The translations under genes and the position numbers were made by a program. Source: Stenoxybacter acetivorans DSM 19021 (lineage in GTDB: Bacteria; Pseudomonadota; Gammaproteobacteria; Burkholderiales; Neisseriaceae). Taken from it: a DNA stretch of 64,000 nucleotides. Below the pieces are notes generated by a model, which was not told the DNA's origin, ran no database searches, and was given only the letters and a program-made list of their open reading frames with translations. The stretch spans positions 1 to 64,000 of the forward strand of contig NZ_JQKE01000011.1 in assembly GCF_000745895.1 (NCBI RefSeq), read 5' to 3'. Position 1 is the stretch's first letter; each line of letters begins with the position of its first letter. Below are positions 30,017-47,534 of the stretch, in pieces.

Positions 30017-30103
30017 TTATTGATTGGATTTGAAGCCGTTAATATTCCGCCGGAAATACGGTAAAATACACATCTTTATCGAAAACCACGGAAGCACAAG
30101 GTC

Positions 30104-31003
30104 ATGCTGACTTTTCAAGAAATTGTTTTTACCCTGCAAAACTTCTGGGCAAAGCGCGGTTGTGTGGTGTTGCAGCCGTTTGACATGGAAGTGGGCGCGG
30201 GTACAAGCCACCCCGCCACGTGTTTGCGTGCCTTGGGACCTGAGCCGTGGTTTGCCGCCTATGTACAGCCGTCGCGCCGTCCCAAAGACGGGCGTTACGG
30301 CGACAATCCAAACCGTTTGCAACACTATTATCAGTTTCAGGTAGCCTTAAAACCTGCGCCCGACAATATTCAAGAATTGTATTTGGATTCGTTGCGTGAA
30401 CTGGGAATTGATCCCACTGTGCATGATATTCGCTTTGTTGAAGACGATTGGGAAAACCCAACTTTAGGCGCATGGGGCTTGGGCTGGGAAGTGTGGCTCA
30501 ACGGCATGGAAGTTACCCAGTTCACTTATTTTCAACAGGTGGGCGGCATTGACTGCACACCGGTTTTGGGTGAAATCACCTACGGAATTGAACGTTTGGC
30601 AATGTATTTGCAAGGTGTGGAAAATGTGTTTGATTTGGTGTGGGCGCATACTATGGACGGACAAACCATTACCTACGGCGATGTGTTTCATCAAAACGAA
30701 GTTGAACAATCCACCTACAACTTTGAATACAGCAACGCCGCATGGCTTTTGACACAATTTGACCACTACGAAGCAGAAGCACGGCGTTTATTGGAAACCG
30801 ATAACGCCTCTTTAACCTTACCCGCTTATGAACTGGTGTTAAAAGCAGGACATACTTTCAACTTACTTGATGCCCGCGGTGCCATTTCGGTAACAGAACG
30901 CGCCGCTTATATCGGACGTGTACGCACTTTAAGCCGTTTAGTGGCACAGAAATACGTGGAGAGCCGTGAAAAACTGGGTTTTCCGCTGATGAAATCGGTT
31001 TAA
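30104..31003 (+). CDS. glyQ: glycyl-tRNA synthetase subunit alpha
   Basis: Alpha subunit (299 aa) of the tetrameric bacterial GlyRS; it forms the catalytic core that makes glycyl-adenylate. Family segments are [57 protein letters not shown] and [14 protein letters not shown] hairpin terminator follows directly. The partner gene glyS, which usually follows glyQ, is not in the adjacent DNA; a toxin-antitoxin pair and the capsule operon come instead. Confidence 0.97.
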
Positions 31004-31020
31004 TTGTTTATACTTTTCTA

Positions 31021-31054
31021 AAGGCTGCGCTGAGTAATCAGGGCAGCCTTTTTT
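31021..31054 (+). terminator. intrinsic terminator after glyQ
   Basis: AAGGCTGC at 31021-31028 pairs with GCAGCCTT at 31043-31050, followed by T residues. From here to 31328 the DNA is AT-rich and I see no gene in it. Confidence 0.8.
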
Positions 31055-31328
31055 ATTCATTCACATTTCAAACTGCTTTTCTATCTTGATATAATCTATA
31101 CTAAATTATTGATATATATAGATAAACTATTAAATTTTTCAAAACAACTTGCCGGGAAAATTACGGCTAATTGTCTAAAATCTGCTGATAGACTATGTTT
31201 GCTTATTTTGAAAATAATAATATAGCTATACTTTGCTTAGGTGTTATTGAACATAGATTCTAAGCCCACGCCGAAGCCGAAGCCGTCGCTAAAACAGGAG
31301 TGAACCTGTCCGTAATTTCACAATCGGT

Positions 31329-31697
31329 TCAAACCAACAGATCTAAATCAACCTTCATGGCAACAGCAATAGTTTTCATGACGCGTAACGAACCATCTTT
31401 TTTACCGGTTTCGATATCGGACAGATATGACAGAGATATGCCAACACGGTGCGCCAGATCTGCCGCCGTCATGCCGCGCCATTTGCGAAATACTTTAACG
31501 GGATTTTCTTCGGATAAAATAAGGCGATTGATTACATCAGCAGGAATGGTTTCTTCGCCCGCATTGATGCGTTCTCGCACAGCAGCAGCAGCGGTGATGT
31601 CGGCGTTGGTTTCGTGCTTGCCCAACAATACGTCAAATTCTGCCTTTGGCAAGATGATGTATTGACTGTTGTTGAGTTCTATGGTTTGAATATTCAT
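31329..31697 (-). CDS. HTH-type antitoxin of a toxin-antitoxin pair
   Basis: A 122-aa protein. The C-terminal half is a Cro/C1-type helix-turn-helix: FRKWRGMTAADLAHRVGISL, then YLSDIETGKKDGS. The N-terminal half probably wraps the toxin. The ATG at 31697 has AGGAG at a normal distance. It lies 10 bp downstream of the toxin gene, the HigBA-like order (toxin first). It should neutralise the toxin and, with it, repress the promoter at 31970-31997. Confidence 0.85.
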   Translation of the reverse strand: MNIQTIELNNSQYIILPKAEFDVLLGKHETNADITAAAAVRERINAGEETIPADVINRLILSEENPVKVFRKWRGMTAADLAHRVGISLSYLSDIETGKKDGSLRVMKTIAVAMKVDLDLLV

Positions 31698-31707
31698 TTT
31701 TATACTC

Positions 31708-31962
31708 CTAATTTTTGTAGATTTCACCACGCGAAGCAATTTTCAGGATGGTGAGTATATTGCCTTCGTCGTCAAAAATAATGCGCCAATCACCCACGCG
31801 CAAACGGTAGTAGGGGCTGCCGCTCATTTGGATAACATTGTTCGCTTGCGACTGAGGATCAACAGCGTATTCGTTGATTTTAGAAACGATTTTTTGGGCT
31901 GTGTTTCTGGGTAAGCCCTTCAGGATTTTAGCGGCTTGCTTGCTGTAGTAAATGGTTTTCAT
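31708..31962 (-). CDS. RelE/ParE superfamily toxin
   Basis: Small basic protein of 84 aa with the RelE/ParE pattern: YYSKQAAKILKGLPRNTAQK, then PYYRLRVGDWRIIFDDEG and a final ILKIASRG strand. Whether it cleaves ribosome-bound mRNA (RelE/HigB) or inhibits gyrase (ParE) cannot be told from sequence. No ribosome binding site precedes the ATG; the -10 box ends 7 nt before it, so the mRNA is probably leaderless. Confidence 0.85.
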   Translation of the reverse strand: MKTIYYSKQAAKILKGLPRNTAQKIVSKINEYAVDPQSQANNVIQMSGSPYYRLRVGDWRIIFDDEGNILTILKIASRGEIYKN

Positions 31963-31969
31963 GCTTACT

Positions 31970-31997
31970 ATTATAGCAAATAGCGTACTTATTTCAA
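31970..31997 (-). promoter_or_regulatory. strong promoter of the toxin-antitoxin operon
   Basis: On the minus strand TTGAAA (31992-31997), a 16-bp spacer and a perfect TATAAT (31970-31975) lie just before the toxin ATG at 31962. Transcription would start at or next to the start codon. Confidence 0.7.
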
Positions 31998-32015
31998 TGA
32001 ATAAATACGCTATTT
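31978..32015. promoter_or_regulatory. palindromic operator candidate of the toxin-antitoxin operon
   Basis: AAATAGCGTA at 31978-31987 is the reverse complement of TACGCTATTT at 32006-32015, with further pairing inside. It covers the -35 box and most of the spacer, the usual place for toxin-antitoxin autorepression. Confidence 0.6.
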
Positions 32016-32105
32016 GAGATTTTTAACCAATAAACGGATAAGTATGGTGTTTTAGCCAATTTTGTCGGCGGCAAGGTACTTAATAACCGTTTCTCCAATG
32101 CAGTG

Positions 32106-32196
32106 TGTAAGAATTACCAGCGTTGCTTACGGTATTTATAGGAAATATTTTCTGAAAATCAACAGTATCTTTTTCATAACTCTGCTAATTCTTACA
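32106..32196. mobile_element. 91-bp MITE-like element with IS481-type ends
   Basis: Bounded by perfect 11-bp terminal inverted repeats (TGTAAGAATTA at 32106-32116 and its complement at 32186-32196). Its left end continues ACC-GCGTTG-TTAC in the same pattern as the end of the IS481-family element at 63195. It holds no ORF. It is probably a non-autonomous derivative that the IS transposase can move. It lies in the gene-poor stretch 31963-32269 with the operator and a palindrome at 32214. Confidence 0.65.
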
Positions 32197-32213
32197 GCTA
32201 GGGTTTTAAACGA

Positions 32214-32228
32214 TTCAGGCTACCTGAA
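32214..32228. repeat. palindrome TTCAGGCTACCTGAA
   Basis: A near-palindromic 15-mer containing AGGCTACCTGAA, a one-base variant of the main uptake sequence (like the Eikenella dialect). The same 15-mer is at 63171-63185, again close to an IS481-type end. Confidence 0.55.
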
Positions 32229-32269
32229 ACATCTGTTCTGTTCTTTTATTTGCTTTTACGGTTCAGGAT

Positions 32270-32719
32270 TCAGGGCTCAGGATAGAAGTCATCATCAAGA
32301 ATTTGCGCTGCCGTCCAGATTGGGTTTTCAGGAAAAGCTGTTTTCGGTATGCCTGTTTCTTTTGATGCAGCGGTTACAGCGGTATTCCATACGTCTTGCA
32401 GCCATTCTGCGGCATTTAAATTTGCTTTTAAGCTGGGCGAATCTTTTAGGATATAGGGAATTTGCGCTCTTTGCTCAACAATAGTGCGCCGCCAGCTGTT
32501 GCTTTGTAGAGTGGGCTGCTTGTGCCATTTCAGCAAGTGCATAACCAACACCAACATGCGGCTCTTTAACTCCCGATGTTCGCTTTTGCCCATACATTCA
32601 ATCTCTTCAACCAAATTTTCAATATCAGCTTCCTGCCACCGCCCTGCTTTCAGCAATGCGGCTTGGTGCTTTGCCCATGCGGCAAAGTCTTGACTGTATC
32701 CGGTTTGTACAGTTGCCAT
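32270..32719 (-). CDS. DUF29 family protein
   Basis: A 149-aa protein of unknown function with the DUF29 pattern: GYSQDFAAWAKHQAALLKAG, then ENLVEEIECMGKSEHRELKS, then RMLVLVMHLLKWHKQP. I chose the ATG at 32719, with AAAGG about 9 nt upstream. Members are common in cyanobacteria and some proteobacteria, often in many copies and near mobile DNA; their role is unknown to me. A broken copy is at 7703-7900. Confidence 0.85.
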   Translation of the reverse strand: MATVQTGYSQDFAAWAKHQAALLKAGRWQEADIENLVEEIECMGKSEHRELKSRMLVLVMHLLKWHKQPTLQSNSWRRTIVEQRAQIPYILKDSPSLKANLNAAEWLQDVWNTAVTAASKETGIPKTAFPENPIWTAAQILDDDFYPEP

Positions 32720-32909
32720 ATTGCACACCTTTTAAACGATATTTTAATTATTGCTATCATACAATAAAGTTTTTGTCAAAACAATCACAAAAAAACAGAC
32801 TGAATTCAAAATTGAATGGAACAGTGTCCTATAAAATTCCACAGAATTTTTTGAAAATAAATTATAACAATGATTTTGATAGTTTTTTATCTCTATTCCT
32901 TACCAGTCT

Positions 32910-32938
32910 AAAACCTCGCCCTTCAGGGCGGGGTTTTA
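32910..32938 (-). terminator. terminator of the capsule operon
   Basis: AAAACCTCGCCC and GGGCGGGGTTTT form a stem around TTCA, flanked by A and T runs on both sides. It can work in both directions and lies 66 bp past the last capsule gene. Confidence 0.8.
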
Positions 32939-33003
32939 ATCAGCGTGTGGTTAGAGAAAGGTGAATACCTCTTCTTAACACCGAGTACATTTCTGCTTAT
33001 TTT

Positions 33004-35251
33004 TTATCCAAATCGCTCTTTTAAATAGATTAATGTTGTTTCCGGTACAATTTCAGCGATTTCATCAAACTGTTTCTTTTCCAATAATGCACGAACGCGA
33101 GAAGCAGAAATCACCGCACCGCCGCTTTCTTTTCGCACGATTACCTCAAATTCAATACCATGCTGCGGCAGAATGCGGCGCATGGCATTGTTGTATTGGC
33201 GGGTAACATTATCCAGCGGTTCTTCGCCCGCGAAACGGCGAGTAATGCCCAAAGTCGGAGCGATGTGGGTAGCAAAGATTTCCACGTCATCTGATGGATC
33301 GATGATCTCATCTTGTAACTCGGCTTTGCTGGAATAAGCCGCAAAGGTAAGACTGGAAATAATAAACCTGCCGCTGGGGATTACCGTAATGTTCGGAAAT
33401 TCCGCTACACCTTTTTTCACCAATTCAAAGCGGTCTGTAAACGGGAAAAAACTTTTGTCTTCTTCCACCACAAACAAATACAAATAATCCACTTTTGATG
33501 CGGCATAGCTAATCAGGTGTTTATGCCCCATAGTAAAGGGATTGCAGTTCACCACGATTGAACCGATTTTACCCGTACAATCGGCTTTGTGTTCACGCAA
33601 TAATGCTTTGTATTTTTCCAGGTTTTCATATTCGGATACGGGTATCAGCATCTTTTCTTTTGATCTATTAGTCTCCTGGTTTTCCAATAACTCCAGATCC
33701 TTTTTGAATGCAAACAAATTGTCTTTCAGCATTTTTTCATAAATATGCTGGGCAATCACTTCATTGCCGATTTTATTTGGATGCGATTTGTCTATAAAAA
33801 TTTCACCCAAATCGTGTGGTCTGTCAAAAATACTCCGGTTATCCAGTAGTTTAATATTTTTTGTTTCAGGAAAAGATGAATAAATATCCAAGTGTGATAT
33901 CCATAAAATAATATCGCCTTGTTTGAATTTAAATTCTTTTATAAAATTAATACCTAAATCATACTGATGTGCAGAAAAATTAGCATAATTCATGACTAAA
34001 TATTTTTTATTATTTAAATTGATAATTCTTTGTAAATAGCTGCTTATAGTATCAGCATCTTCTGAGCCAATACCATAAGCAACTGAAGAACCGAATATAT
34101 ATATAGTATGGTCGTATTTTTCAGGTTGGTCAGTGGTTAAACGTGCATGATTGACAACATTGACATATTGAGAACTTCGATTGTGTAAATAATGAACACC
34201 TTGTTTAACCGAACCAATCCAAATATCAGTAACCGCACATATATAATCATAATCCACGCCAAAACGAGCCAGTGCAGGAATAGAAAAATTTTTATCTTTC
34301 TCCAATAAAGATCTGATCGTAGAGATGGAAGCTAAATTTTGTTCATGTTCTGTTCTATTTTTAATGTCTAAATGCCAAGGCTGCATGCAGATTAAAATAG
34401 GAACATTAAATGTGTTACTGATTTTATTTAGTTGATTGATAACAATACTCTTTACAAAAACTTCCTTCAAAATAGTATCAATATCAACAATATTTTCCAC
34501 ACCCAAATCAGATAATTTTTTCTGAGCATCCGAAAAGTTTGATGTATGAACATTCAAAAAATAAGAATTCTTATTTTTTGATTCAATATTTTTGATAGAA
34601 GTTAAACGGATACTGCCCAATGAACCCGTTTTAAGAAAAAGTATCCATTCATAATCTAAACTATAGTATTGTTTAATATCAAAACAAGAGTATTTACTGT
34701 CAATTAAAATACTCTCCAATAATCTGCGATCATGCCAATTACCAACAACATAAACTTCCTCAATTTTTCGCTCTTGAAAATAGTTAAAAATACTGCCGCC
34801 CCATAGGTTGATGGCTTGTATTTTCTGCAGTAATGACTGTTCTAACAAGGTTTGTGGAAATAATTCTGTTGCGCATGCCTCATATAGTGTGTAAATTTTT
34901 GGAAAATGGCGTACACTATTTGGGTTTATTTTTTGAAAAATACGCAGTGCTTCTTGATAATTACTACGTAATAAATAAGCCTTAATCAAATCACAATAGT
35001 TTTTTAAATAAACCTCATCACCTAGTTTTTTTCGGCTTTCATTATTATCAATCAATGCTAATTTTTCTTTAAACCATTTTTCACTAATCAATTCGCCTGA
35101 TAAAGATAAATTGTTGATTGTTGATTGTTGATTGTTGATTGTTGATTGTTGATTGTTGATTGTTGATTGTTGATGATAATTGGTCTATTTTATCTTGTAA
35201 CTGATTAATACCTAATTTAATTTTCAATATATCAAATATAGGTTTTTTCAT
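33004..35251 (-). CDS. SGNH-hydrolase-like / citrate lyase ligase-like fusion protein, phase variable (OFF)
   Basis: The natural start is the ATG at 35251 (AAGGA 9 nt upstream), giving MKKPIFDILKIKLGINQL and a short coiled coil. Nine copies of ATCAACA then shift the frame and a stop follows soon after. From 35091 the second frame is open for 695 codons. Its residues 333-340 (FGSSVAYG) and 434-443 (DKSHPNKIGN) fit an SGNH-type Ser and Asp-His. Residues about 508-695 resemble citrate lyase ligase (CNPFTMGHKH, VVEEDKSFFPF), a nucleotidyltransferase fold. With 8 or 11 repeats the protein would be continuous (746 aa for 8). As the last capsule gene it may modify the polymer; the reaction is unknown. 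Confidence 0.8.
35112..35174 (-). repeat. heptanucleotide tandem repeat (ATCAACA)9
   Basis: Nine perfect 7-nt units inside the 5' coding part of the preceding feature. Three units encode one STINNQQ heptad. Unit gain or loss by slipped-strand mispairing changes the frame, since 7 is not a multiple of 3. Confidence 0.95.
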
Positions 35252-35317
35252 TTTTAAATTTCCTTTCTGTATTTATAAAAATATTAATCTAAACCAGAGT
35301 CATATTATTAGAAATGA

Positions 35318-36298
35318 TTATTTATTATAATATTCCAATGATAAAACAAGCCCGCACTGGGAAAAAAAATCAAAATCTTGTTTTAAAAGCGCATTAATGC
35401 ATACAAAATTTATTGAATTTGGTACCAGACGTTCATAAAAATATTTTTTATTTTCAACAACAAATTCACTTGCCAAATCAAATATCCTTTTTTGTTCTTC
35501 AATAGTATAAAATTTAAATTCACGTAAATAAATCAATAAATCGTGATTAGCAAAAAATGCTATTTGGTAGACTTTACGCAGTTCAGGCAAGTATTGCCAT
35601 AATCGGAGAATGGCATCCATTCTCCCTTCAAAGTTGGTAACAGTCTTACTTTGAGTAATGGATTGTCCAATAGGAGCGACTTTCCACAGATAAACTTCTT
35701 CGTGAATTAAGCCAATTTTATCAATGCTTGAATATAATTTAGCCGTAAATAATTTATCTTCGTACAAACCCTCTTCAAACAAAATATTTTGCTGCAAGAG
35801 CATGTCTTTTTTATACAATTTATTAGTTGATAAGGTATCACTGTATAAAGCATTTCTTTGTTTTAACTCATCAACAGTATCTTGCTTATAAATATCGGGA
35901 AACCATTGTTCACGCCTACCGTTTTCTAACAAATGGCGAACAGTTATGCCTGAAACCACAGTCAGCTGCTTACTTTCGGCAAAACTAACCAAACGGGTTA
36001 AACCATTCAGAAAAATTTCATCATCGGCATCTAAAAAAAACACATATTTGCCGAGTGCTTGTCGGATACCAAAATTTCTGGTTAGCCCCAAACCTTCATT
36101 TTTTTTACGAAATAAGCGAATTTTATTATTTTTGTATGAGGCCACTACATCATCTACCGGCTCATCAGAACCATCATCAACAATAACAACTTCATAATTT
36201 TTGTATTTATTTCTTTGTATTGATTCAATGACTTTAGGTAAAGTAACTTTGGAGTTATAACACGGTATCACAATGGATACCAAAGGAGTGATGTTCAT
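35318..36298 (-). CDS. family 2 glycosyltransferase of the capsule locus
   Basis: GT-A type enzyme of 326 aa. It begins PLVSIVIPCYNSKVTLPKVI, continues with VVIVDDGSDEPVDD and LTRNFGIRQALGKYVFFLDADDEIF; the DADDE holds the metal-binding DXD. I chose the ATG at 36298, which has AGGAAT upstream and places the GT2 start correctly. It would add one sugar to the repeat unit or to a side chain; the sugar cannot be told. It is AT-rich like its neighbours and lies 97 bp after the polymerase. Confidence 0.88.
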   Translation of the reverse strand: MNITPLVSIVIPCYNSKVTLPKVIESIQRNKYKNYEVVIVDDGSDEPVDDVVASYKNNKIRLFRKKNEGLGLTRNFGIRQALGKYVFFLDADDEIFLNGLTRLVSFAESKQLTVVSGITVRHLLENGRREQWFPDIYKQDTVDELKQRNALYSDTLSTNKLYKKDMLLQQNILFEEGLYEDKLFTAKLYSSIDKIGLIHEEVYLWKVAPIGQSITQSKTVTNFEGRMDAILRLWQYLPELRKVYQIAFFANHDLLIYLREFKFYTIEEQKRIFDLASEFVVENKKYFYERLVPNSINFVCINALLKQDFDFFSQCGLVLSLEYYNK

Positions 36299-36394
36299 AA
36301 AAATTATTCCTAATTTTGTAATGGCATTTAATATGTTATTGTAGCCAGCTTTCAATCATGCTTGCTACAATAGAATCAACACACTGCGTTATTG

Positions 36395-39277
36395 TTAAAG
36401 TTCAGTAAATAAGCTGTTCCATTTTGCAAATACACGTTCATTAGAAAACTCTTGATATTTAGCTCTAATATCGTTTTCAGATAATTGATTTAATTTTAAA
36501 ATATTTTGTGCAAATGTTTCATAATCACCAAATTCAACCAAATAACCTGATTGTTGATGCGCTACTACTTCTGAAGCGGCGGTATAGCTGTTAAATACCA
36601 CTACAGGGCGGTTATGGGCATAGGACTCCAGTACCACCAATGAGAAACCCTCAGATTGTGATAATAAAATTAATCCTGAAACTTGTGAGAAAATTTTACT
36701 TTTGTCGGCTTCGTAACCATGAAAAATAATATGATTTTGTAGTTTATGCTTCTCAACCAATTTTAACAACTCGGGGTATTTGGGACCATCGCCATAAACG
36801 TGGACAACAATTTCAGGGTATTTTTCTGAAACAACGTTAGCAAGTTCAATCAACCCAAAGATATTTTTATCTTCATCAAGCCGCCCGATGTAGGCAACAT
36901 GATAATTATTTGTTCTGGGTAGCGCATGATAGGCTTCGGTAATAGAATTTGGAATAAAAGTAATTTTTTCTTGTATTTCTTCATTCACATGTTTGCTGAT
37001 TAAATCGGCATTTTTCTTGGTTAATAAAATAAATTTGTCATAGTTAAACAGCTCGCCGCTATTCAACCAATTTAAATGTGGACCATATAGGTTTCGACTG
37101 ACTATATCTTTAGTATCGCCGTGAAACATTAAAACCACTTTTGCATCCTGTAAAAATTTTTGGAAATGTAAATGTGCTGAAAACTGCAATGAAATCACAA
37201 TACCATCAGTATTCTGTAAAATATTTTGACAAGCACCAACTAAAAATTCAGCAGAAATCATTACATCAAAAAATTTATTGTCTAATTTGTAAAAATTTTG
37301 GTTGGTGTGAGAAAATTCTTTAATGGCAATCACATGTACTCTGGCATTGTATTGCTCTTTATAATATTTTGCCATATTTGTCATAAATGTATGAATACCA
37401 CCGATTTGATTTAAATCGTTTACCAAAAAAATAATGTCTTTTATTTTTCTGGGTGTGGCATCAAAACAGAAATAATCAATAACTTTCTGAGTAGAATTGC
37501 CTTGCTCTAGCGGATAAAAAGTTTGTTTCAGTTGTTGGTTATCACTTTGCAAAGGCTTGGTAAAAACTTCATATAATTTATTTTCGTTATAAATAATTTG
37601 TTCAGCAGGCAGATATTCCTTAAAATCAAAATACACACCCCTGTTATTTAAATAATCAAAAAAATCATATTGAAATAAAATAATTGGTTTATTGAGTAGA
37701 GCATAATCAAAAATCAAAGATGAGTAATCACTTAACAATATGTCTGAGCAATTCATTAAACCATAGAGATTACTGTTATTGCTAAAATCATATACGCCAT
37801 TTATTTTATCTGCTTCATCTAACTGATTTAAATAATGTAATTTAACCAGTAAAACATATTCATTGTTCAAGGAATTCAGTAACCGTTGAGCATCAAATGG
37901 CAATTTGGCGTCTCCTGTTTCTCGATAAGTAGGTGCATAAAGAATCACTTTCTTTTCGGTTGGAATTCCGTAATACATTTTGAAATAATCAGTAACAGGT
38001 TTGGTTCTTTTGTTGGGTTTCTGTGTTAAGATATCACCAATATCTACTTCGTTAACACTGCTGATACCATTTTCATCACAAATTAATTTTCGATATACTG
38101 CTTTATTTTCTATCTGATTGGCTTTATAAAAATAACTTAAAAATATCGGTGTGGAAGTTGCGTTAAATTTTTCAATTAATTCTATGTTGGCATTAAACAC
38201 ATAATCTGCTGCTGCAATATAATTCCATAACAGAGAGTCATCAGTAATCAATTGAATATTTTTACTCTCTTCCAAAAGGGTTCGAATAAAATCACTTAAT
38301 TTATCTGACTTTGCATGGCTGACATCAATCGCTATTTCTGCTTCATTAAAATCAGTCAAAACGGTGCGAATATGACCGACGGCGGCTTCAGTATTATTGA
38401 AGTTTTGTATGTCAAAATTTAAATACAATAGTTTATTTTGTCCTTCATTACAAAACACTTTGGGTGGATTAAGCAATAAATCAATTTTAGCACTACCCAA
38501 TTGTGCAATATCCCCATGAAACAACAGGGATTTTTTTATCCATTGGGTATAGTAATCAGACATGGAGACCATACTTTGGTATGCACGTGCATAGCGTACG
38601 GCTGTGTTCATATTTGTAACATCAAAATCAACAAACATTTTTTTATACGGAATACCGTGCCATACAGATGCCCAATAATTTTTATCAGATATTTTATAGA
38701 AAAAATCCAGAGAACCTGCGTCAATCACATATTCTGCAGTAAATTTCAGATAATCCGCATAGCTGGTACCGTTATTGACCACGGTATATCTACCGTAATC
38801 AATAATCGGCGAGGGTTGTTCTTTTAAAATAATATAAATGTCAAATTGTTGGTAATAGGTATCAATAAACGGCAAAATATCAACCAATACTCGCTCATTA
38901 TAGGCAGATGGAACCAGTAGTAATTTTTTCTTCAAATAAATATCAATATTTTTTTTGATACTCGTTCTTCTGGGGGCAGATTTATGAATACCAACACTTT
39001 GTTTGCCTTTTTTCTTAATGGCTTGTTGTAGTTGCTTATTCCATGATGTGCGGGCTGGATTAATTTCAATGGCTTTGCTGATAAATTCTTCTGCTTTAAC
39101 CGCTTCACCTGTTTTTAATAATAAAACTCCGTATTTAAAATTGGCTTCTGCCAACAAAGGGAATTGCTGTATGGATTTTTCAAAAAACAGCTTGGCTTTA
39201 TCCCATTCATCTTTCTGATAATGCAAAACCCCTCGATAATAATTGACATATGCCTGAGCTTTTTTAATTGAATTCAT
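36395..39277 (-). CDS. bifunctional capsule polymerase: TPR, TagF-like glycerophosphotransferase and GT4 domains
   Basis: This is a 960-aa cytoplasmic enzyme. Residues about 10-85 are TPR-like. Residues about 110-620 match CDP-glycerol glycerophosphotransferases: VWHGIPYKKMF near 205 and LLSDYSSLIFDYALLNKPII near 520. Residues about 640-955 are a GT4 glycosyltransferase with IGRLDEDKNIFGLIEL, HVYGDGPKYPELL and the EGFSLVVLE donor-binding motif. Polymerases that join a TagF-like and a GT module make capsules of alternating sugar and glycerol phosphate in Neisseria meningitidis and Actinobacillus. The linked TagD gene supports this. The exact sugar and linkage are unknown. Confidence 0.87.
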   Translation of the reverse strand: MNSIKKAQAYVNYYRGVLHYQKDEWDKAKLFFEKSIQQFPLLAEANFKYGVLLLKTGEAVKAEEFISKAIEINPARTSWNKQLQQAIKKKGKQSVGIHKSAPRRTSIKKNIDIYLKKKLLLVPSAYNERVLVDILPFIDTYYQQFDIYIILKEQPSPIIDYGRYTVVNNGTSYADYLKFTAEYVIDAGSLDFFYKISDKNYWASVWHGIPYKKMFVDFDVTNMNTAVRYARAYQSMVSMSDYYTQWIKKSLLFHGDIAQLGSAKIDLLLNPPKVFCNEGQNKLLYLNFDIQNFNNTEAAVGHIRTVLTDFNEAEIAIDVSHAKSDKLSDFIRTLLEESKNIQLITDDSLLWNYIAAADYVFNANIELIEKFNATSTPIFLSYFYKANQIENKAVYRKLICDENGISSVNEVDIGDILTQKPNKRTKPVTDYFKMYYGIPTEKKVILYAPTYRETGDAKLPFDAQRLLNSLNNEYVLLVKLHYLNQLDEADKINGVYDFSNNSNLYGLMNCSDILLSDYSSLIFDYALLNKPIILFQYDFFDYLNNRGVYFDFKEYLPAEQIIYNENKLYEVFTKPLQSDNQQLKQTFYPLEQGNSTQKVIDYFCFDATPRKIKDIIFLVNDLNQIGGIHTFMTNMAKYYKEQYNARVHVIAIKEFSHTNQNFYKLDNKFFDVMISAEFLVGACQNILQNTDGIVISLQFSAHLHFQKFLQDAKVVLMFHGDTKDIVSRNLYGPHLNWLNSGELFNYDKFILLTKKNADLISKHVNEEIQEKITFIPNSITEAYHALPRTNNYHVAYIGRLDEDKNIFGLIELANVVSEKYPEIVVHVYGDGPKYPELLKLVEKHKLQNHIIFHGYEADKSKIFSQVSGLILLSQSEGFSLVVLESYAHNRPVVVFNSYTAASEVVAHQQSGYLVEFGDYETFAQNILKLNQLSENDIRAKYQEFSNERVFAKWNSLFTEL

Positions 39278-39342
39278 TTTAAAAACCTTGAGTATTAAAA
39301 AATAATTTATTTTGATTTTAGAAGTATTATATCATTTTGTTA

Positions 39343-40629
39343 CTAATGTGTTATTTTTTCCAGTTCTTCAATCAGTTGTCGATAACGCATAATCTGCTTC
39401 CTACAATATTCATCTTGCTTACCGCATAATATCAATTTAAACAGTGTTTTATAAGAAAAAATCAGCATTTCTTTTTGATTAAAGATTTCCAAATTCGGAG
39501 TATCCAATTTGGAATCGAATTGGGTTTGTGGTATTTGCCAATCTTTGCCGTAGTTTTCTATCAAATAACGTTCGGGATTGGCGGGAATTAGAAAATCTTT
39601 ACCTAAGAAGCGGTGCGGGCGTAATTCAAACGGACTATTGAACCATTTGAGTTTGGACGAGCCGGCGTGCCAGACACGGTTTTGTTGTTTGATGTGGTAA
39701 AATACATCAATGTATACGCCGTTTACATGCTTTAAGCGAATGCGTTCTGGTACACAAGCTGGCAAAATATCAAAGTAACCACTGTGGGAGACGGCACGAT
39801 ATAGGGCTTTGTGATTTACCTCTTCCCATACGCCCACATCTAAATCATTGTCGTGCGGCAAGATTTCTCCGTTTCGGATACAGCCAAGTAAGGTGCCGCT
39901 GACCAAGAAAAATGGGATTTGGGTGTGAGTGAGAACGGTATGCAAATCCAATAAAGCACGTTCGGCAGCTTTTGGATTAAAGGCTTTTTTGCTGTTGGGT
40001 TGCTGCCAACCGTGTTGCTGTAAAAGAACTAAACCGTGCTGCCACATGGCCTTGGCTTCCTTATAGGCTTCGGCACGCAGGGCGGCTTCGGAGTAGTAGT
40101 CCAAATACACCAAAGCAGATGGTTCATTTATCGGCAAGCAGTATTGCTGAAAATATTGTTCAAATTGGTGAAAATCGGCTTTAGTGCATACCAAACTCGC
40201 CAGATACAGCCAAGTTTTTTTACGTTTTGGGTTAGTAACTAAGGCTGCATACAGCAGTTGTTGTGCAGCAGCGATGTCTCCCAAGGCATGTAAGCATTTA
40301 CTTTTTAAATAAATCAATTCCATATGGGCAGGAAACCGTGCCAGAATTGTGTTAATAAAAATAATTGACCTGCGGTATTTCCCTTTTAAATACAAACATT
40401 TTGCCGAAAAATAATATGCAACACATGGATTGATTGGCTTGCTTTGTTTGGCAAGTGTGAGTAAGGATTGATTCACACCTTGTTGTATACGGTACTCAAA
40501 CTGGATAATCAGATACAATATTTTCAGTGAACGATTGTTGCGCAACAACATTCTGTAGTCGCGATACATAGCAGAAAGCTGTTGTTTATTCAACAACAGC
40601 GAGATTAACTGACTTTGACTTGTCTGCAT
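39343..40629 (-). CDS. LicD-like nucleotidyltransferase-fold protein with TPR-like N-terminal region
   Basis: The 428-aa product has helical repeats of TPR type in the first 220 residues (CVAYYFSAKCLYLKGKYRRS; LYAALVTNPKRKKTWLYLAS). A LicD/fukutin-type domain follows with IPFFLVSGTLLGCIRNGEIL and PHDNDLDVGVWEE, the metal-binding acidic motif. LicD proteins transfer phosphocholine or other phospho-alcohols to sugars. I chose the ATG at 40629 because it lies 4 bp after tagD; the frame stays open upstream through tagD. It probably decorates the capsule or starts the chain. Confidence 0.75.
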   Translation of the reverse strand: MQTSQSQLISLLLNKQQLSAMYRDYRMLLRNNRSLKILYLIIQFEYRIQQGVNQSLLTLAKQSKPINPCVAYYFSAKCLYLKGKYRRSIIFINTILARFPAHMELIYLKSKCLHALGDIAAAQQLLYAALVTNPKRKKTWLYLASLVCTKADFHQFEQYFQQYCLPINEPSALVYLDYYSEAALRAEAYKEAKAMWQHGLVLLQQHGWQQPNSKKAFNPKAAERALLDLHTVLTHTQIPFFLVSGTLLGCIRNGEILPHDNDLDVGVWEEVNHKALYRAVSHSGYFDILPACVPERIRLKHVNGVYIDVFYHIKQQNRVWHAGSSKLKWFNSPFELRPHRFLGKDFLIPANPERYLIENYGKDWQIPQTQFDSKLDTPNLEIFNQKEMLIFSYKTLFKLILCGKQDEYCRKQIMRYRQLIEELEKITH

Positions 40630-40633
40630 AATT

Positions 40634-41050
40634 TTAAATTCTACCGTACATGGTGCCGGGAGTAGTGTGAATGTGTCGTTTGATTTCTGAAGAAGAAATA
40701 GCTTCGGTACGCGGTAGATAGCATACTTCACAATAGGGAGATAAAAAATCAAATTTCCCCATCCAATCATGCCCCATTACAAAAGTATCAATCTTAAATT
40801 CTTGTACGTCACTGATTTTTTGTTCCCAATTATTTTCAGGAATAACCAAATCAACACAGCGTAATGCCTCTAAAATTTGCTTGCGATCTTCATAACAAAT
40901 GACGGTCTGCTTATTTTTTTCAGCTAAATTAAATTCATCAGAAGACAATCCCACAATCAAGTAATCACCCAATGATTTTGATCGCTTTAATAAATTTAAA
41001 TGCCCAATATGAAATAAGTCAAAAGTCCCATATGTTATAATTTTTTTCAT
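40634..41050 (-). CDS. tagD: glycerol-3-phosphate cytidylyltransferase
   Basis: The enzyme makes CDP-glycerol from CTP and glycerol 3-phosphate, the donor for the TagF-like polymerase. The 138-aa protein starts MKKIITYGTFDLFHIGHLNLL with the HxGH motif and ends with the second signature (EAISSSEIKRHIH). AGGCG lies upstream of the ATG at 41050. TagD enzymes are best known from Gram-positive wall teichoic acid, and also occur in Neisseria and Pasteurellaceae capsule loci. CtrE-type names are avoided because the locus type is not proven. Confidence 0.92.
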   Translation of the reverse strand: MKKIITYGTFDLFHIGHLNLLKRSKSLGDYLIVGLSSDEFNLAEKNKQTVICYEDRKQILEALRCVDLVIPENNWEQKISDVQEFKIDTFVMGHDWMGKFDFLSPYCEVCYLPRTEAISSSEIKRHIHTTPGTMYGRI

Positions 41051-41124
41051 AATTTCGCCTAAAATATTTTTATAAATACTTAATTTTTGCAACTGTTCGT
41101 CATTAATCGCTTGACAATACTCTA

Positions 41125-42315
41125 TCAATAAAAAGTAGCATTCAGCTGCGTTCTTTGTAACTGATAGCAATAAAATCCATGAAACACGGCATAATTCAAT
41201 GGCTTGCTGTTCTGCCAAAAATCAGCCAAATCTTGCCTGTCAACCAAGCCGTCAATGTCATAATTGGCTTTGCCCAACATCTTAACGGGCAAGTGATGAA
41301 TCATGGCTGAAATTGCGCTGGTGCTGTTTACCACAACCATGCCGCGCGCTCGGCGCAAGAAAATGGGCAGGGGAATATTGTAAACATAATAAATTCTGTC
41401 TTGTAATTGATAATGTTTTGTTAGTTTTTTTATCAATTTGCCGTAATCCACAAAACCAATATCCATCGGGTGGTGTTTGATAACCAGTTTGGTATTTATC
41501 GGTGCATTCTGAGCAAATGATTTTACGATACACTGGATAAATGCCGCCACCGATTTAAATGGGCTGTGTACTTTTATTTGGCTGTCGTTGTGTACTTGCA
41601 GCGGAACAATAAAAAAATTGCCCAGCTGCCCATGTTCAACCTGCTTTGCCAAGTGGTTTTCTTTGGCTTTTACTTTTAATCTTACCAATCCGCTTTCGCC
41701 CCATGCTTTTATATACCATAAAAGACGGGTACTTCGATGATGCTGGTAATGCGGATAATCATGCCGCTGCCGATACATTTGCCAATAATATTGACTCGCC
41801 AATTTTGCCAATGGGCGAAATCCGGGGGCAACGGGTTTGGGCGGCCGCGGTTCACTCAATAAATAGGTTTGCTGCTGATAAAACTCGGCATCGCGCGGCT
41901 CGGTGGAATAGTCATTCACACCGCTACGCTCAAATGTAATGTAATGCGGACGGAAATAACCTTCTTCAAACACCCAAAAGCTCACGGCTGTCTGAAAATC
42001 GTTGCATACTTGTTTGGCAATGCGGTGATAAATTCGATTGTCTCCAAAGCAAACCACGGCATCAATGTGGTTTTGGCGGATAAAGTCAATCAAAAAATCT
42101 TGGAATTCACTCGGGCTACCTGAAAATGAAACGGTTTTCGGCGTGGTTTCGGGATAAAAATAACGATCACCGCCGTTAAAATTAATTTTAAAAACAACTT
42201 TGCTGTGTTCTTTGGTTAATTGTTCACCCAAATTGAAAAAATAACCACCCACAGGACCTTGTAAAAACAAAATTCGGGAAGATTGGGTTAAAAAATCATC
42301 AAAATGGGATTGCAT
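41125..42315 (-). CDS. kpsS: capsule polysaccharide Kdo transferase KpsS (LipB-type)
   Basis: KpsS adds the first beta-Kdo to lyso-phosphatidylglycerol, starting the linker that anchors group 2 capsules. The 396-aa protein starts with ILFLQGPVGGYFFNLGEQL and has VVCFGDNRIYH, FEEGYFRPHYITFE and the C-terminal HHPMDIGF and VVNSTSAISAM, all typical of KpsS/LipB. It lies 151 bp downstream of kpsC. In Neisseria the homologue is called LipB. Confidence 0.92.
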   Translation of the reverse strand: MQSHFDDFLTQSSRILFLQGPVGGYFFNLGEQLTKEHSKVVFKINFNGGDRYFYPETTPKTVSFSGSPSEFQDFLIDFIRQNHIDAVVCFGDNRIYHRIAKQVCNDFQTAVSFWVFEEGYFRPHYITFERSGVNDYSTEPRDAEFYQQQTYLLSEPRPPKPVAPGFRPLAKLASQYYWQMYRQRHDYPHYQHHRSTRLLWYIKAWGESGLVRLKVKAKENHLAKQVEHGQLGNFFIVPLQVHNDSQIKVHSPFKSVAAFIQCIVKSFAQNAPINTKLVIKHHPMDIGFVDYGKLIKKLTKHYQLQDRIYYVYNIPLPIFLRRARGMVVVNSTSAISAMIHHLPVKMLGKANYDIDGLVDRQDLADFWQNSKPLNYAVFHGFYCYQLQRTQLNATFY

Positions 42316-42466
42316 TTATCTATCTGTCTTATTGTTTTAAGCCATGTGGTAATAAATTTTTAGAAAACCGTATTACCGCGAGCCATACGAACAACCACTA
42401 TGCTTTTTTAAATTTATTTTTATAAACAATGGATTGCACACTTGTGTTAATAGACAACACGCAAAC

Positions 42467-44536
42467 CTAATGCTGTAAATATTTAAGCAATAGCTGCGCC
42501 AAGTAATTCAGCTGTGTATATTTGCGGGAAAACCAATTGCTTTTAATGCGGATATTGGCTTGCTTGGCTTGTTTCAGCCACAATAAACCATCTGCCGCGC
42601 TCATGCTCTGCCGTGTCTGCGGGTGAACATACATGGGATAGAGCAGCAAGGCTGCCGCTGTTAATTCAGGCAGCCTCAGCCGCCGCTTGCGCCGCAAACA
42701 GGCATCACCCAAATCCTCGGTTAAACCCCAACCCGCATAAAATGGTGTTCCGTAACACACTATTTTTTTGTTTCTGATTAGTCCTTCAAATCCTGCCAGT
42801 GATGTCATGGTATGCACTTCGTCCACTGCATTGATGCACACTGAAATACTGGTTTGTACTATTTGTAAATTGGCATATTTTAACACAATTTCATGTGAAA
42901 CTTGTCCAACGCGATTGCCGCTCAATACATCGGGATGCGGCTTATACACAATAAAAGCATCAGGATTGCGCGCACGCACGGCTTGCAGCAATGCCAAGTT
43001 GGTCTTCACTGCACCCGAACCGAACCGAATGGAAGCATCATCTTCCACTTGCCCTGGCACCAAAATGCTGCGCTGCGCTACCGGTATGGCAATGGTTTCG
43101 TATTCATCGCCCACATTGTACTTATTGATGTGGTGTTCAATCATGAGCTGGGTTAGCGTTTCGGCTTCACACAAGGTTCGCTCATCAAATACGGTTTCGT
43201 TCAACAAGATTTCCAAGCGCGAGGCTTGCTGCGGGTTGAAATAAATACCTTGATCGTCGAAAGACAAGGATAAAGGCGGCGTGAGATTTGAACCCAAACC
43301 TGCTGAGCGCAAAAAACCATCTTCCACACGCATCAGCGGAATATTTCGATCTTGCGCCCATTGCGCAACATTGGGGTGTTTCATGCCCCACAGCAATACG
43401 GTAAACGGTGTTTTCGTATCCGCCAAATGGCGTAGTCTTTTGATTGATGAGGTGAAGGTGATGGGTACGCGCAAGCTGTGTAAAAATTCACGGAACAATA
43501 ACCGCCGCCACAGCGAAAAATCAAAGCCTACAAGATTAACATTCAGCAAAGCATAATCACTTTTTTGCTTGTGCAGATAAGCAATGGTGGTCAAAATATC
43601 ACTGATTTCCCCGCTGTTGGGGTTTACATACACGCAATATTGCAGATATGCGGCGGCAAAAAGCTGAATCAAAGTGCGCGGCAGACGCCGAGCGGCTGCC
43701 TGAAGAGCGGGAATATCAGAATGACGGTCATCGCTCAAGCCCCAGCCTGCATACCACGGAATGCCGAAAGTAACCACCTGTTTGCCTGCCAGCAAGGCTT
43801 CAAAACCCATTTGTGATGACACGGTATAAACTTTGTTCATTGCCGACAACAATACATACGGATTGATATTTTCCGACAATAAATAGGTGTTTTCAGGCAG
43901 CCTGTCTGCCGAGAAGTGTCCGTTTTTTTTACCTGCCAATACATCGGGATGGACTTTAATCCAAATTCGTGCGTTCGGATTTTCTAAACGTGCCGCCGCC
44001 AGCATTTGCACAAAGGTTTCTTGTTCAGCGCGTGCGCCGGCAATGGAGACATCGCCGTTGGTTTGGTCAATCACCAAAACATTATCGTGGCTGCCTGAAA
44101 GATTTTCAGGCAGCCTGTCGTTATAGCGATTGTATTTACACAATTGGTATTGGCGCACTTCGCTTATTGCGATGTGCGCGGTGTGCCATTCATTTTTGGA
44201 AAATTGGTTTTTTAAAATCAACTGTTCCAAATCAGAAGGCTGATGAGAATCGTAGTAGATGCCGGTTTTGTCGATAATCAAAGACAAAGGCGGCGCACCG
44301 TTTACCCCCAAGTCAAATGATCGCAAAAAACCGTCTTCTAAGCGATAGTAAGGCAATTGATGCTGTGCCGCATAGGCTTGCGCACGGCGGGTATTGGCTT
44401 TATTGCCCCAGCCGCAAACGGCATCAGCATCTGATGCACTGTTTGACAGGGTCGCCAAGCACACTTTGGCTTGCAAAAATGCTTCAATGTGGGGAATCTT
44501 GGCAATGCCCCGCGAAAAAGTAACAAATTGCCGCAT
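42467..44536 (-). CDS. kpsC: capsule polysaccharide beta-Kdo transferase KpsC (LipA-type)
   Basis: KpsC extends the poly-Kdo linker with alternating bonds. The protein is a tandem of two related transferase modules. Each has the EDGFLRS motif (residues about 65 and 420), a PPLSL-(D)-GIYY strand and a C-terminal box (YTVSSQMGFEALL; HTMTSLAGFEGLI) followed by FGxPWYAGWGL or YGTPFYAGWGL. The product is 689 aa from the ATG at 44536; a TTG at 44542 would add two residues. Two uptake-sequence copies are translated within it (43892-43903; a facing pair at 44092-44116). Confidence 0.93.
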   Translation of the reverse strand: MRQFVTFSRGIAKIPHIEAFLQAKVCLATLSNSASDADAVCGWGNKANTRRAQAYAAQHQLPYYRLEDGFLRSFDLGVNGAPPLSLIIDKTGIYYDSHQPSDLEQLILKNQFSKNEWHTAHIAISEVRQYQLCKYNRYNDRLPENLSGSHDNVLVIDQTNGDVSIAGARAEQETFVQMLAAARLENPNARIWIKVHPDVLAGKKNGHFSADRLPENTYLLSENINPYVLLSAMNKVYTVSSQMGFEALLAGKQVVTFGIPWYAGWGLSDDRHSDIPALQAAARRLPRTLIQLFAAAYLQYCVYVNPNSGEISDILTTIAYLHKQKSDYALLNVNLVGFDFSLWRRLLFREFLHSLRVPITFTSSIKRLRHLADTKTPFTVLLWGMKHPNVAQWAQDRNIPLMRVEDGFLRSAGLGSNLTPPLSLSFDDQGIYFNPQQASRLEILLNETVFDERTLCEAETLTQLMIEHHINKYNVGDEYETIAIPVAQRSILVPGQVEDDASIRFGSGAVKTNLALLQAVRARNPDAFIVYKPHPDVLSGNRVGQVSHEIVLKYANLQIVQTSISVCINAVDEVHTMTSLAGFEGLIRNKKIVCYGTPFYAGWGLTEDLGDACLRRKRRLRLPELTAAALLLYPMYVHPQTRQSMSAADGLLWLKQAKQANIRIKSNWFSRKYTQLNYLAQLLLKYLQH

Positions 44537-44601
44537 GAACAATCACTTTGTCAGCCTATCGGCGATTAAACAAACACACAAAACCGATACGCAAAATAAA
44601 G

Positions 44602-44640: not shown

Positions 44641-46338
44641 TTACAAACCGAACACCACTTTTGCCGCCACGGCAATTTGATACAAGATTTGCGTGATGCC
44701 GCGGGTTACTTCCAGATTTTTGGTTTTCACCTCAGTTAAAACCATAATCTCATCACCCGGGTTTAAACGGGTGCTGCCTGAAGCCGCCAGCGATTCGCCG
44801 TTTTGGCGTATCACGATGATGTTCGATTTGCCTTTGGTTTGCGATAAGCCGCCGACTTTTTCCAGATAGTCGTCCACATCTAAACCTTTTTCCCAGCCCA
44901 CGGCATTGGGAAACATCACTGCACCGTGTACACTGACCAACGAGGTTTTTTCGGGAATAACAATCACATCGCCGTCTTCCAGCAGGGTGGTTTTCAGGGT
45001 ATTTTTATTTAATACCACTTGTCCTTTGGGTTGAATCTCAGAGGCTCTTTTCACAAACTCCTGCACCATTTCCGCTTCTTTTGCCCGCAGCGATGCTTCG
45101 TCTGATGTGGAAGAAGGCGTGGTTAAGGTAGCCTGTTGTAATTTTTGCAGTTCCAAATTCAGCATTTCTTTTTGGCGTTTTGCCACGCTGGGGCGGAACA
45201 GCTGAATGGCATCAATTTGCGACATGGAATTGGCACGGATATTTTCCAACACCGCTTCCATGGTTGAACCATAGGGCAATACCATGGCGTGTTCGCCCGA
45301 ATGTGCGCCTTCAATGCGCACTTGAATGGTGCCGTCATAGCGGTCGGTGGTAACCGTTAAATTATCACCGTCTTCCAATTCAATATTGCGCGCTTCGCTG
45401 ATTGGATAATATTCAGAACGTTTTTCCGAGCCTTGACGGCGCACGATGCTGACGTGTGATGCCCCCGGCTTAGGTTTGGCGTAGCGCAGTGCGGTAACAA
45501 GCGGAATTGTGGCTTGGTTGAATTCAAAATCATAAGGATTATAAACATCGCCGTTGATGGCAAACGTGTGTTTGCGCTGGGTAACCATAATGACATCGCC
45601 ATCGCGCAAATCTTGGTTTTTAATATCACCGGACAATAAAAAATCGTACAAATTCAATCGGTTGATGATATGACCATTGCGTTTGATTTCAATATCAATA
45701 TAGCTGCCGCGGTTAGGATCAACGCCGCCGGCTTTATCCAAATAAGAAATGGCAGAATCGCCGGCAGTGCCGCCGTATAACCCGGGCTGTAAGACGAAAC
45801 CGGTAACAAACACTTTTATCGGTTGGGCATTTGCCAAGGCGGCATAGACTTCCACATTGGCACGGTAAATGCGGGCAATGGCACTTTTAATGGTGCTGTT
45901 TAAATTGCCGTTTGCCACGCCGGCTACGCGCACCGGTCCGACATTGGGGATAAAGATATTGCCTTGCGGGTCCACCACCAATTGCCCGTCAAACAAATAT
46001 CCGCCCCACATACGCAAGACGATTTGGTCGCCTTCTTTGATTTGATAGCCGACATTCATGCCGCTGTTGATATTGTTGCGGAACATGCCGCTGAACAATT
46101 GCGCACCATACATACGGCTGGGGCTGCCCAGCACACCGCCGTAACCGTTTGCCGACGGCAAAGGCGGCTGCTGTACGGCACTGCCGGCTGCTGTTTGCAG
46201 CTGTGCTTGATTCACGGTGGCATTTTGTTTTGCCTGTTGGTCGATACTGCCGTCAATTTGATTGAAAATAACAGCATCTGCATGTGCCACGGTCAATAGG
46301 GAGGTCAAAGCCGCCGCGATGAGTAATTTTTTCAGCAT
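44641..46338 (-). CDS. kpsD: capsule polysaccharide export protein KpsD (Wza/CtrA family)
   Basis: This periplasmic/outer-membrane export protein links the ABC transporter to the cell surface. A signal peptide (about residues 1-20, ending AHADA) precedes a poly-export domain with YQIKEGDQIVLRMWGGYLFD and NIFIPNVGPVRVAGV. SLBB-type domains follow with VFVTGFVLQPGLYGGTAGDS, INGDVYNPYDFEF and SVHGAVMFPNAVGW. At 565 aa it is KpsD-sized rather than CtrA-sized (about 390 aa). It follows kpsE by 2 bp. Confidence 0.9.
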   Translation of the reverse strand: MLKKLLIAAALTSLLTVAHADAVIFNQIDGSIDQQAKQNATVNQAQLQTAAGSAVQQPPLPSANGYGGVLGSPSRMYGAQLFSGMFRNNINSGMNVGYQIKEGDQIVLRMWGGYLFDGQLVVDPQGNIFIPNVGPVRVAGVANGNLNSTIKSAIARIYRANVEVYAALANAQPIKVFVTGFVLQPGLYGGTAGDSAISYLDKAGGVDPNRGSYIDIEIKRNGHIINRLNLYDFLLSGDIKNQDLRDGDVIMVTQRKHTFAINGDVYNPYDFEFNQATIPLVTALRYAKPKPGASHVSIVRRQGSEKRSEYYPISEARNIELEDGDNLTVTTDRYDGTIQVRIEGAHSGEHAMVLPYGSTMEAVLENIRANSMSQIDAIQLFRPSVAKRQKEMLNLELQKLQQATLTTPSSTSDEASLRAKEAEMVQEFVKRASEIQPKGQVVLNKNTLKTTLLEDGDVIVIPEKTSLVSVHGAVMFPNAVGWEKGLDVDDYLEKVGGLSQTKGKSNIIVIRQNGESLAASGSTRLNPGDEIMVLTEVKTKNLEVTRGITQILYQIAVAAKVVFGL

Positions 46339-46340
46339 AA

Positions 46341-47525
46341 TTACATTCTGTGATCACGAATAATAGAAACAACAACCTTCACTAAGCCATAAACCAATAG
46401 GCTAATCAGAAGAATGGTTGCCAAAGAATAAATTTTACGCGGGTAAAAGGCTTCATCTGCCATCACCGGCTGACTCACCACCGCTAAAATCCGCGATTTT
46501 CGGGTAACTTCATTTTTACTTTTCTCCAAAGCACCCAGAGCCAATTTATACAAATCAGCGGCAAAGCTGACTTTGCCTTTTAATTCGGTAAATTGCAACA
46601 TTTTTTCATTCAAACGATTGTTGTCGCCTGAAGTTAATTGTGCCTGCTCTTTGCGGATTTGGGCGTTAATGGCGTTAATGGCGCTTTGTGCCGCCCGAAT
46701 TTGCGGAGTGTTGTCGTTCAGATAAGTACTCAAGTTATTTTTATCGGTTTCCAGCTGGGCTTTTTTGGCTTCCAATTCAGCAATCAAGCGGCTGGTTGAT
46801 TCGATTTGAATTTGCGGATCAATCAATTTGTTTTTATTTTGAAATTGCAGCAGCGATGTTTCGGCATTCTGCAACTCGGCATAAGTGCGATGAACGGCAT
46901 CTTGTGCTTCGGTGATTTGGTTGCGGGTAATGGTGTTGGACAATTCGTTTAAAAATGCTTCGCTCTCTTGCAATAAAACGCGGTTGAACTGGCGGGCAAA
47001 CGTGGGGGTAAAACCTTGCGTAGCAATGGTTAATACGCCGGTTTTTTCATCAAACAACACTGAAATTTTGGATAAATAATAGGCAAAATTTTCTTCAAAA
47101 ATTGTATCTTGAGGGTAACGCTGAAATAAATCGGCACCGGATTTTTTAAAGGCTTCCTGAAAATTCAATTTTTCATCGAGTTTCTTAAACATGTCGGGCG
47201 ACAAAATATAACGCTCCAGCAATAAAGCGTCTTCTTTAACGGTGGCATTGCCGCCGCCCACCAGCATAGATAAGGTTAAATCCATGCCGCCTGAATCATC
47301 GGCGCGCTTCACCAAGACCAGTGAATCACTCACATAGCGGTCTTTGGCAAAAATCACAAAATAAACGGTGCTGAGTAAAAATGGAATCAACACCAGCCAC
47401 AAGAAAAGTTTATCTTTGCGAACCCACCGCCACAGCGATGCTTGTCTTTTTTTTGCCCATTTCGTTGATGTCCGCACATTGGCGGGAACATTAAACTTTG
47501 GTTTCGGTAAATTTAATTTAGCCAT
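46341..47525 (-). CDS. kpsE: capsule export inner-membrane protein KpsE (CtrB family)
   Basis: A polysaccharide co-polymerase-type protein of 394 aa that spans the periplasm between KpsMT and KpsD. It has one membrane helix near residues 43-61 (LFLWLVLIPFLLSTVYFVIF), a long coiled-coil periplasmic part (LQFQNKNKLIDPQIQIES; LETDKNNLSTYL) and a second helix near the C-terminus (IYSLATILLISLLVYGLVKV). It starts 9 bp after kpsT. Confidence 0.92.
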   Translation of the reverse strand: MAKLNLPKPKFNVPANVRTSTKWAKKRQASLWRWVRKDKLFLWLVLIPFLLSTVYFVIFAKDRYVSDSLVLVKRADDSGGMDLTLSMLVGGGNATVKEDALLLERYILSPDMFKKLDEKLNFQEAFKKSGADLFQRYPQDTIFEENFAYYLSKISVLFDEKTGVLTIATQGFTPTFARQFNRVLLQESEAFLNELSNTITRNQITEAQDAVHRTYAELQNAETSLLQFQNKNKLIDPQIQIESTSRLIAELEAKKAQLETDKNNLSTYLNDNTPQIRAAQSAINAINAQIRKEQAQLTSGDNNRLNEKMLQFTELKGKVSFAADLYKLALGALEKSKNEVTRKSRILAVVSQPVMADEAFYPRKIYSLATILLISLLVYGLVKVVVSIIRDHRM

Positions 47526-47534
47526 TCAAGCCAC

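Follow-up and report, generated by a model that had tools for sequence, protein, structure and literature searches.

The gene that appears to end a capsule locus in Stenoxybacter acetivorans DSM 19021 carries, close behind its start codon, a heptanucleotide tract whose number of units determines in computation whether the coding frame is open or closed. We interpret this gene as a simple-sequence-repeat (SSR) contingency locus in which a putative ON/OFF enzyme likely decorates the capsule, and we assign this reading as a whole a probability of roughly 77%. We infer that slippage of the tract in the living population is most likely, which makes this a candidate phase-variable locus.

In the window (the whole stretch of 64,000 nucleotides that was analyzed), the minus strand of the start region of this gene reads AGAAAGGAAATTTAAAAATG, with an ATG at 35251 that is preceded by AAAGGA. 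The tract begins 77 nt further on and consists of nine perfect ATCAACA units (35174 to 35112, minus strand). When the window was analyzed by TRF, this array (35110-35174, 9.3 copies, 100% match) had a score of 130, and the second-best array had a score of 81. Beyond the tract lies a long frame (33004-35091, minus strand) of 695 codons, counted from a TTG, that is stop-free despite the ∼30% GC content of the DNA. This frame is also open upstream across the tract (726 aa), and its first in-frame ATG after the tract is codon 241. Thus, the repeat, the supported start codon, and the 695-codon frame that an earlier note had described from the letters of this DNA are all present.

Frames were recomputed for tracts of 0-15 units. 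The ATG at 35251 was joined to the long frame when 2, 5, 8, 11, or 14 units were present, giving products of 732-760 aa (746 aa with 8 units and 753 aa with 11), and every remaining unit number led to a stop no more than 10 codons past the tract. With nine units, the consensus count in a draft assembly (143 contigs) of one genome of the species, reading from this ATG gives 55 aa (35084-35251, minus strand) and ends at a TAG at 35084-35086. These results agree with the early stop at nine units and with the ON states at 8 and 11 units that the earlier note had predicted. As 7 = 1 mod 3, the tract encodes the same cyclic, stop-free peptide, (STINNQQ)n, in each of its three frames, and ON variants would therefore differ by whole heptads; these heptads could possibly form a coiled coil. 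The array has the composition of an SSR switch, as it is a perfect repeat at the 5′ end of a coding sequence with a unit that is not a multiple of 3, and certain unit numbers give a full-length product when others give an early stop.

The tract is the single ATCAACA array in the 2.6-Mb Stenoxybacter genome. At least three consecutive ATCAACA units were found in 2 of 83 genomes of the family, and among 398 sampled genomes of the phylum a three-unit array was found in one, the Stenoxybacter genome itself. Because the tract is this rare among the genomes of the family and the phylum, chance is not a sensible explanation for its origin on these counts. A gene from another genus of the family (genome G059) has three ATCAACA units directly after its start codon (L019:1497-1522); it encodes an autotransporter-like frame with a signal peptide, which is OFF with 3 units and predicted to be ON with 2, 5, or 8. 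A related array of about seven ATCGACA units (TGTCGAT on the other strand) was seen in genome G065 (L101:1506-1554), where it is apparently intergenic.

The long frame encodes a fusion of an SGNH-like domain to a citrate-lyase-ligase-type (CitC-type) domain, as assigned from a match to PF08218, sequence motifs, AlphaFold2 models (mean pLDDT 87), and Foldseek searches. A helical, TPR-like N terminus (residues ∼1-85) and an α/β region (residues ∼86-290) precede the SGNH-like domain (residues ∼325-456), which contains the catalytic Ser-Asp-His residues of SGNH blocks I and V as S336, D434, and H437. The nucleotidyltransferase domain at residues 509-690 matches the entire PF08218 profile (positions 1-182 of 182, E 8.9e-61, 205 bits), and has the TxGH and ISxSxxR motifs of this domain (TMGH, 520-523; ISASRVR, 661-667). 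Against the CitC equivalog TIGR00124, the protein matched profile positions 114-328 with a score of 203.9 bits, which is below the cut-off of 262.1 bits. In Foldseek searches, the C-terminal domain grouped with phosphopantetheine adenylyltransferases. The best match of the middle part was CgnD (E 0.002, a weak match), and its top matches also included SGNH esterases and the acyltransferase SsfX3 at E values of ∼0.05 or weaker, which are not significant. The protein therefore resembles CitC (acetate:SH-citrate lyase ligase) in its C-terminal PF08218 domain and nucleotidyltransferase motifs, and differs from it in the subthreshold equivalog score, the SGNH-like fusion, and the setting in a capsule locus. 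Although the gene is OFF, both sets of motifs are intact and no second lesion is found in ∼700 codons, a state to be expected if the gene is read intermittently. We also observed that GC3 rises from 0.20-0.29 across residues 1-435 (33784-35091) to 0.41-0.46 across residues 436-695 (33004-33783), which suggests that the CitC-type part is of different origin from the remainder.

The neighbors of the tract gene, all on the minus strand, encode a GT2 glycosyltransferase directly upstream (35318-36355, PF00535), a TPR, TagF-like, and GT4 (GT-B) protein of a capsule polymerase type (36395-39277, PF04464 and PF00534), a LicD-family phosphotransferase (39343-40770, PF04991), a glycerol-3-phosphate cytidylyltransferase for CDP-glycerol supply (40634-41218; TIGR01518 at 40673-41041, 177 bits, over the cut-off), a KpsS-type protein (41125-42315, PF05159; NF050054 scored below its own cut-off), and a KpsC-type protein (42467-44542, three stretches of PF05159). 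Profile matches identified the capsule export genes (Poly_export protein, Wzz-like protein, ABC ATPase, and KpsM-like permease) at 44641-48970, also on the minus strand. By this content of export genes, KpsC and KpsS, a TagF-like and glycosyltransferase polymerase, and a CDP-glycerol enzyme, the locus is classified as a group-2 (ABC-transporter) capsule locus of the teichoic-acid type. The CitC-like domain was considered as a missing CDP-glycerol enzyme and ruled out; because the locus has its own true glycerol-3-phosphate cytidylyltransferase, the tract gene is not needed for this step. Downstream of the tract gene, a GC-rich hairpin with a T-rich 3′ arm (32908-32940, minus strand, fold z = −3.9) resembles a terminator, and is absent from the list produced by a consensus terminator scan. 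On the basis of this hairpin, the tract gene looks like the last of the unit, which is where the earlier note had placed it within the capsule locus. The capsule locus adjoins ftsZ, and genes for an HTH_3 protein (31329-31739, minus strand) and a DUF29 protein (32270-32728, minus strand) lie between it and glyQ.

The polymerase matches the described TagF-like/GT-B type (PMC5974469), which makes a glycosylglycerol-phosphate chain the probable polymer. The locus is similar to the Cps7D-type loci of Actinobacillus pleuropneumoniae in having a TPR, TagF-like, and GT-B polymerase together with CDP-glycerol supply, and it differs from them, as far as they are described in that paper, in its SGNH protein, since SGNH proteins are unmentioned there (PMC5974469). 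We found no description of an SGNH-CitC gene in a TagF-like/GT-B capsule locus, or of a capsule enzyme combining SGNH and citrate-lyase-ligase domains, in the literature searched. The G+C content falls to 29-33% across 34-39 kb of the window. Exact copies of the 12-mer simDUS-type uptake sequence number 15 in the window, and none lies in the 12.6-kb span (30017-42664) that holds the capsule synthesis genes. These uptake sequences were the basis for placing the genome in the Neisseriaceae (PMC3630211). Because of the low G+C content and the missing simDUS, the capsule synthesis cassette was probably imported.

The product of the long frame has distant relatives among gut bacteria of unrelated groups. 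A genome scan identified 78 loci with relatives (Campylobacteraceae, Selenomonadales, Clostridia, Treponema, and others), including three nearly full-length relatives (residues 85-695) in Campylobacteraceae metagenome-assembled genomes (MAGs). In an alignment of 45 members, TxGH, the A-V-R core of ISASxVR, and H437 are invariant, Ser or Cys occupies position 336, position 434 is Asp in 31 members, and Lipase_GDSL_2 is matched by 7. The Ser/His (Asp) residues and these GDSL-type matches are features shared with SGNH-type O-acetyltransferases and esterases of the capsule or cell surface. The family departs from these enzymes in that Cys replaces the SGNH Ser in most relatives, no membrane AT3 partner was recognized, and the donor would come from the fused CitC-type domain. 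The N-terminal parts differ among relatives (one, from Campylobacteraceae, has a hexapeptide-transferase motif). One Campylobacteraceae relative is directly downstream of a Capsule_synth gene and one relative is within an exopolysaccharide cluster. Many others are outside polysaccharide loci, and the copies in Selenomonadales are set apart, in some cases as several adjacent copies; the link to capsules is therefore not family-wide. In Selenomonadales loci (L032, L041, L048, L049, L053, and others), SGNH-CitC genes are sometimes in tandem, and some are near coaD and preceded by an unassigned ORF of ∼230-245 aa.

Among the 82 other genomes of the family, no orthologue was found, and the six other matches are frames of citrate-lyase-ligase size (344-352 aa). 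A DNA-level search found no homologue in Escherichia coli. The N-terminal part had no match in phages and one match in plasmids, on a Vibrio megaplasmid. For the N-terminal coiled-coil leader, the other genomes of the family gave weak matches of 26-32% identity, together with a heptanucleotide array in one genome.

The genes of relatives in Campylobacteraceae, Selenomonadales, and Clostridia are enriched in another kind of slippery tract. Runs of at least 8 G or C numbered 24 in the 128 kb of relatives' genes and their edges versus 26 in 1,126 kb of flanks, a density approximately eight times that of the flanking DNA (binomial p 1e-11, a value that is overstated as the loci are partly related, and the enrichment leans largely on related Selenomonadales MAGs). 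Sixteen of the 24 tracts, in 15 loci, fall within the linker that joins the SGNH-like domain to the CitC-type domain (query residues ∼460-490) and have lengths of 8-14. They comprise poly-G tracts in L020 (G14), L021, L024, and L037 (G9 each), and L063 (G11), and poly-C tracts in L032, L035, L043, and L041 (C9 each), L053 (C13), L048 (C14 and C10), L049 (C10), and L078, L087, and L096 (C8 each). In seven loci (L041, the second copy in L048, L049, L063, L078, L087, and L096), the reading frame shifts across the linker tract or next to it, and in all others the tract is read through. Such a mixture is the picture expected of a set of phase variants, some ON and some OFF. The Stenoxybacter gene has no poly-G/C run at its linker and has the 7-nt tract at its N terminus instead, so both the type and the position of the tracts differ between it and its relatives.

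Based on these results, we propose a mechanism in which 7-nt units are gained or lost when the strands of the ATCAACA tract slip and mispair. At a count of 8 units (or of 5, 11, or 14), the ATG at 35251 would be read through the tract to give a protein of ∼746 aa with a short N-terminal helix, the (STINNQQ)n spacer, the SGNH-like domain, and the CitC-type domain. With nine units, translation would end after 55 codons and the enzyme would be OFF or much reduced. Given its place in a teichoic-acid-like group-2 locus, the enzyme would most likely decorate the capsule, and capsule modification, the outcome proposed in the earlier note, is a reasonable guess from the gene's setting. The CitC-type domain may activate a small acyl group (as acetyl-AMP), which the SGNH-like domain could then pass to the polymer. 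Taken alone, this acyl chemistry is tentative and falls somewhat short of an even chance; capsule O-acylation is the best candidate for the function, and a weakly supported one.

Three other explanations for the tract were weighed. The assembly is a draft, and the true count may be 8 or 11 with the gene ON and the tract encoding structural coiled-coil heptads, since it encodes perfect heptads in any frame. However, 63 bp fits within a short read, and a structural repeat does not need identical 7-nt DNA units, the hypermutable configuration; we regard a sequencing or assembly artefact as the least probable explanation. It is scarcely more probable that the tract grew by chance in a decaying pseudogene that is permanently out of frame. 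The only state seen, in one genome, is indeed out of frame, and no orthologue was found in the 82 other genomes of the family, but decay fits poorly with the unbroken ∼700 codons with all key motifs intact, with a tract that lies right behind a good start, and with the recurrence of poly-G/C tracts in relatives.

An unlikely explanation, though one with better prospects than these two, is that the switch is leaky or selects between isoforms. Both wrong frames terminate beside the TTG at 35091 (TTGATTAG with 9 units and TTGA with 10), and this TTG (35089-35091, minus strand), with AGG 4 nt upstream, is a candidate reinitiation start suggested by the frame computation. Reinitiation there would give a 695-aa enzyme without the N-terminal helix and heptad spacer, and the tract would toggle the anchoring or the amount of the enzyme. 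The variable N-terminal module of the relatives is consistent with a core that may work alone. On the other hand, TTG is a poor start and the AGG a weak and close site, it is unremarkable for both wrong frames to stop within eight codons of the tract in DNA of ∼30% GC, where stops are frequent, and when the start of a phase-variable gene precedes the tract, the usual interpretation is an ON/OFF switch. Thus, the earlier note's OFF assignment for nine units stands as far as the frames are concerned, and the OFF state may be incomplete, as expression is possibly leaky. An ON/OFF contingency locus remains our preferred reading.

The Stenoxybacter genome contains other slippery tracts, which were sought by pattern. 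A C13 run near the start of dndC (C28:13562-13574; L125:7563-7575; PADLOC DndC, E 1e-116) closes the ATG frame after 20 codons (OFF), and 11 or 14 C would be read through. This gene is followed by DndD/PbeC-like and SspH/HerA-like genes, and the region is a candidate for phase-variable DNA phosphorothioation or defence, in which the tract could alter the epigenetic state or toggle phage defence. A G10 run that closely follows the lipobox in a gene for a peptide/solute-binding lipoprotein (C44:4138-4147; L115:1501-1510) is in frame (ON). From these tracts, Stenoxybacter appears to carry a set of repeat-switched genes. No CAACAAA tract of the pglE type was found in this genome.

The earlier note had considered tracts of 7-nt units less usual in Neisseriaceae than homopolymers and 4- or 5-nt units, a view to be corrected in that such tracts have a strong precedent within the family. 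In Neisseria meningitidis, pglE is switched by a CAACAAA heptanucleotide repeat and varies in phase in every clonal complex surveyed (PMC7371114, PMC7157529), and Haemophilus influenzae also has heptanucleotide tracts (PMC2651432). Both the Stenoxybacter gene and pglE, whose copy number of repeats controls its expression, combine a perfect 7-nt repeat with a surface-glycan gene in the same family. They differ in the repeat unit and in the protein, which is a pilin glycosyltransferase in the case of pglE and an unrelated SGNH-CitC protein from a capsule locus here, and pglE variation is documented in isolates, whereas the Stenoxybacter tract is known from one genome. As in meningococcal siaD (7C tract, as cited in PMC11868660), a repeat-length switch is present in a capsule-locus gene; the siaD homopolymer (poly-C) switches the whole capsule, whereas the 7-nt units in Stenoxybacter are in a terminal, probably accessory gene. 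The mechanism of switching is already known, and the literature searched gave no account of the SGNH-CitC family as its target.

We also considered whether SGNH-CitC proteins are self-contained glycan-acylating enzymes that have been put repeatedly under phase variation in unrelated phyla, an idea that we hold to be more doubtful than the acyl chemistry itself. If it is true, an acid and ATP would yield an acyl-AMP from which the same protein carries out O-acyl transfer, the linker poly-G/C tracts of Campylobacteraceae and Firmicutes would, in the OFF state, cause an SGNH-only protein to be released, and the Neisseriaceae version would use an N-terminal heptanucleotide, with both wrong frames perhaps allowing reinitiation.

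Where phase variation recurs, it is usually a sign of surface structures that are under fluctuating selection from a host or from phage. With the Stenoxybacter tract, switching by heptanucleotides would be extended to a gene of a capsule locus, in a member of the Neisseriaceae that has been little studied. The gene itself makes the case more than routine, as SGNH-CitC relatives show an excess of slippery tracts, in many cases at a fixed interdomain site. This pattern suggests that toggling of the family has been repeatedly favored. The recurrent tracts in relatives therefore point to an unrecognized, probably surface-related activity of SGNH-CitC proteins, which could be assayed directly.
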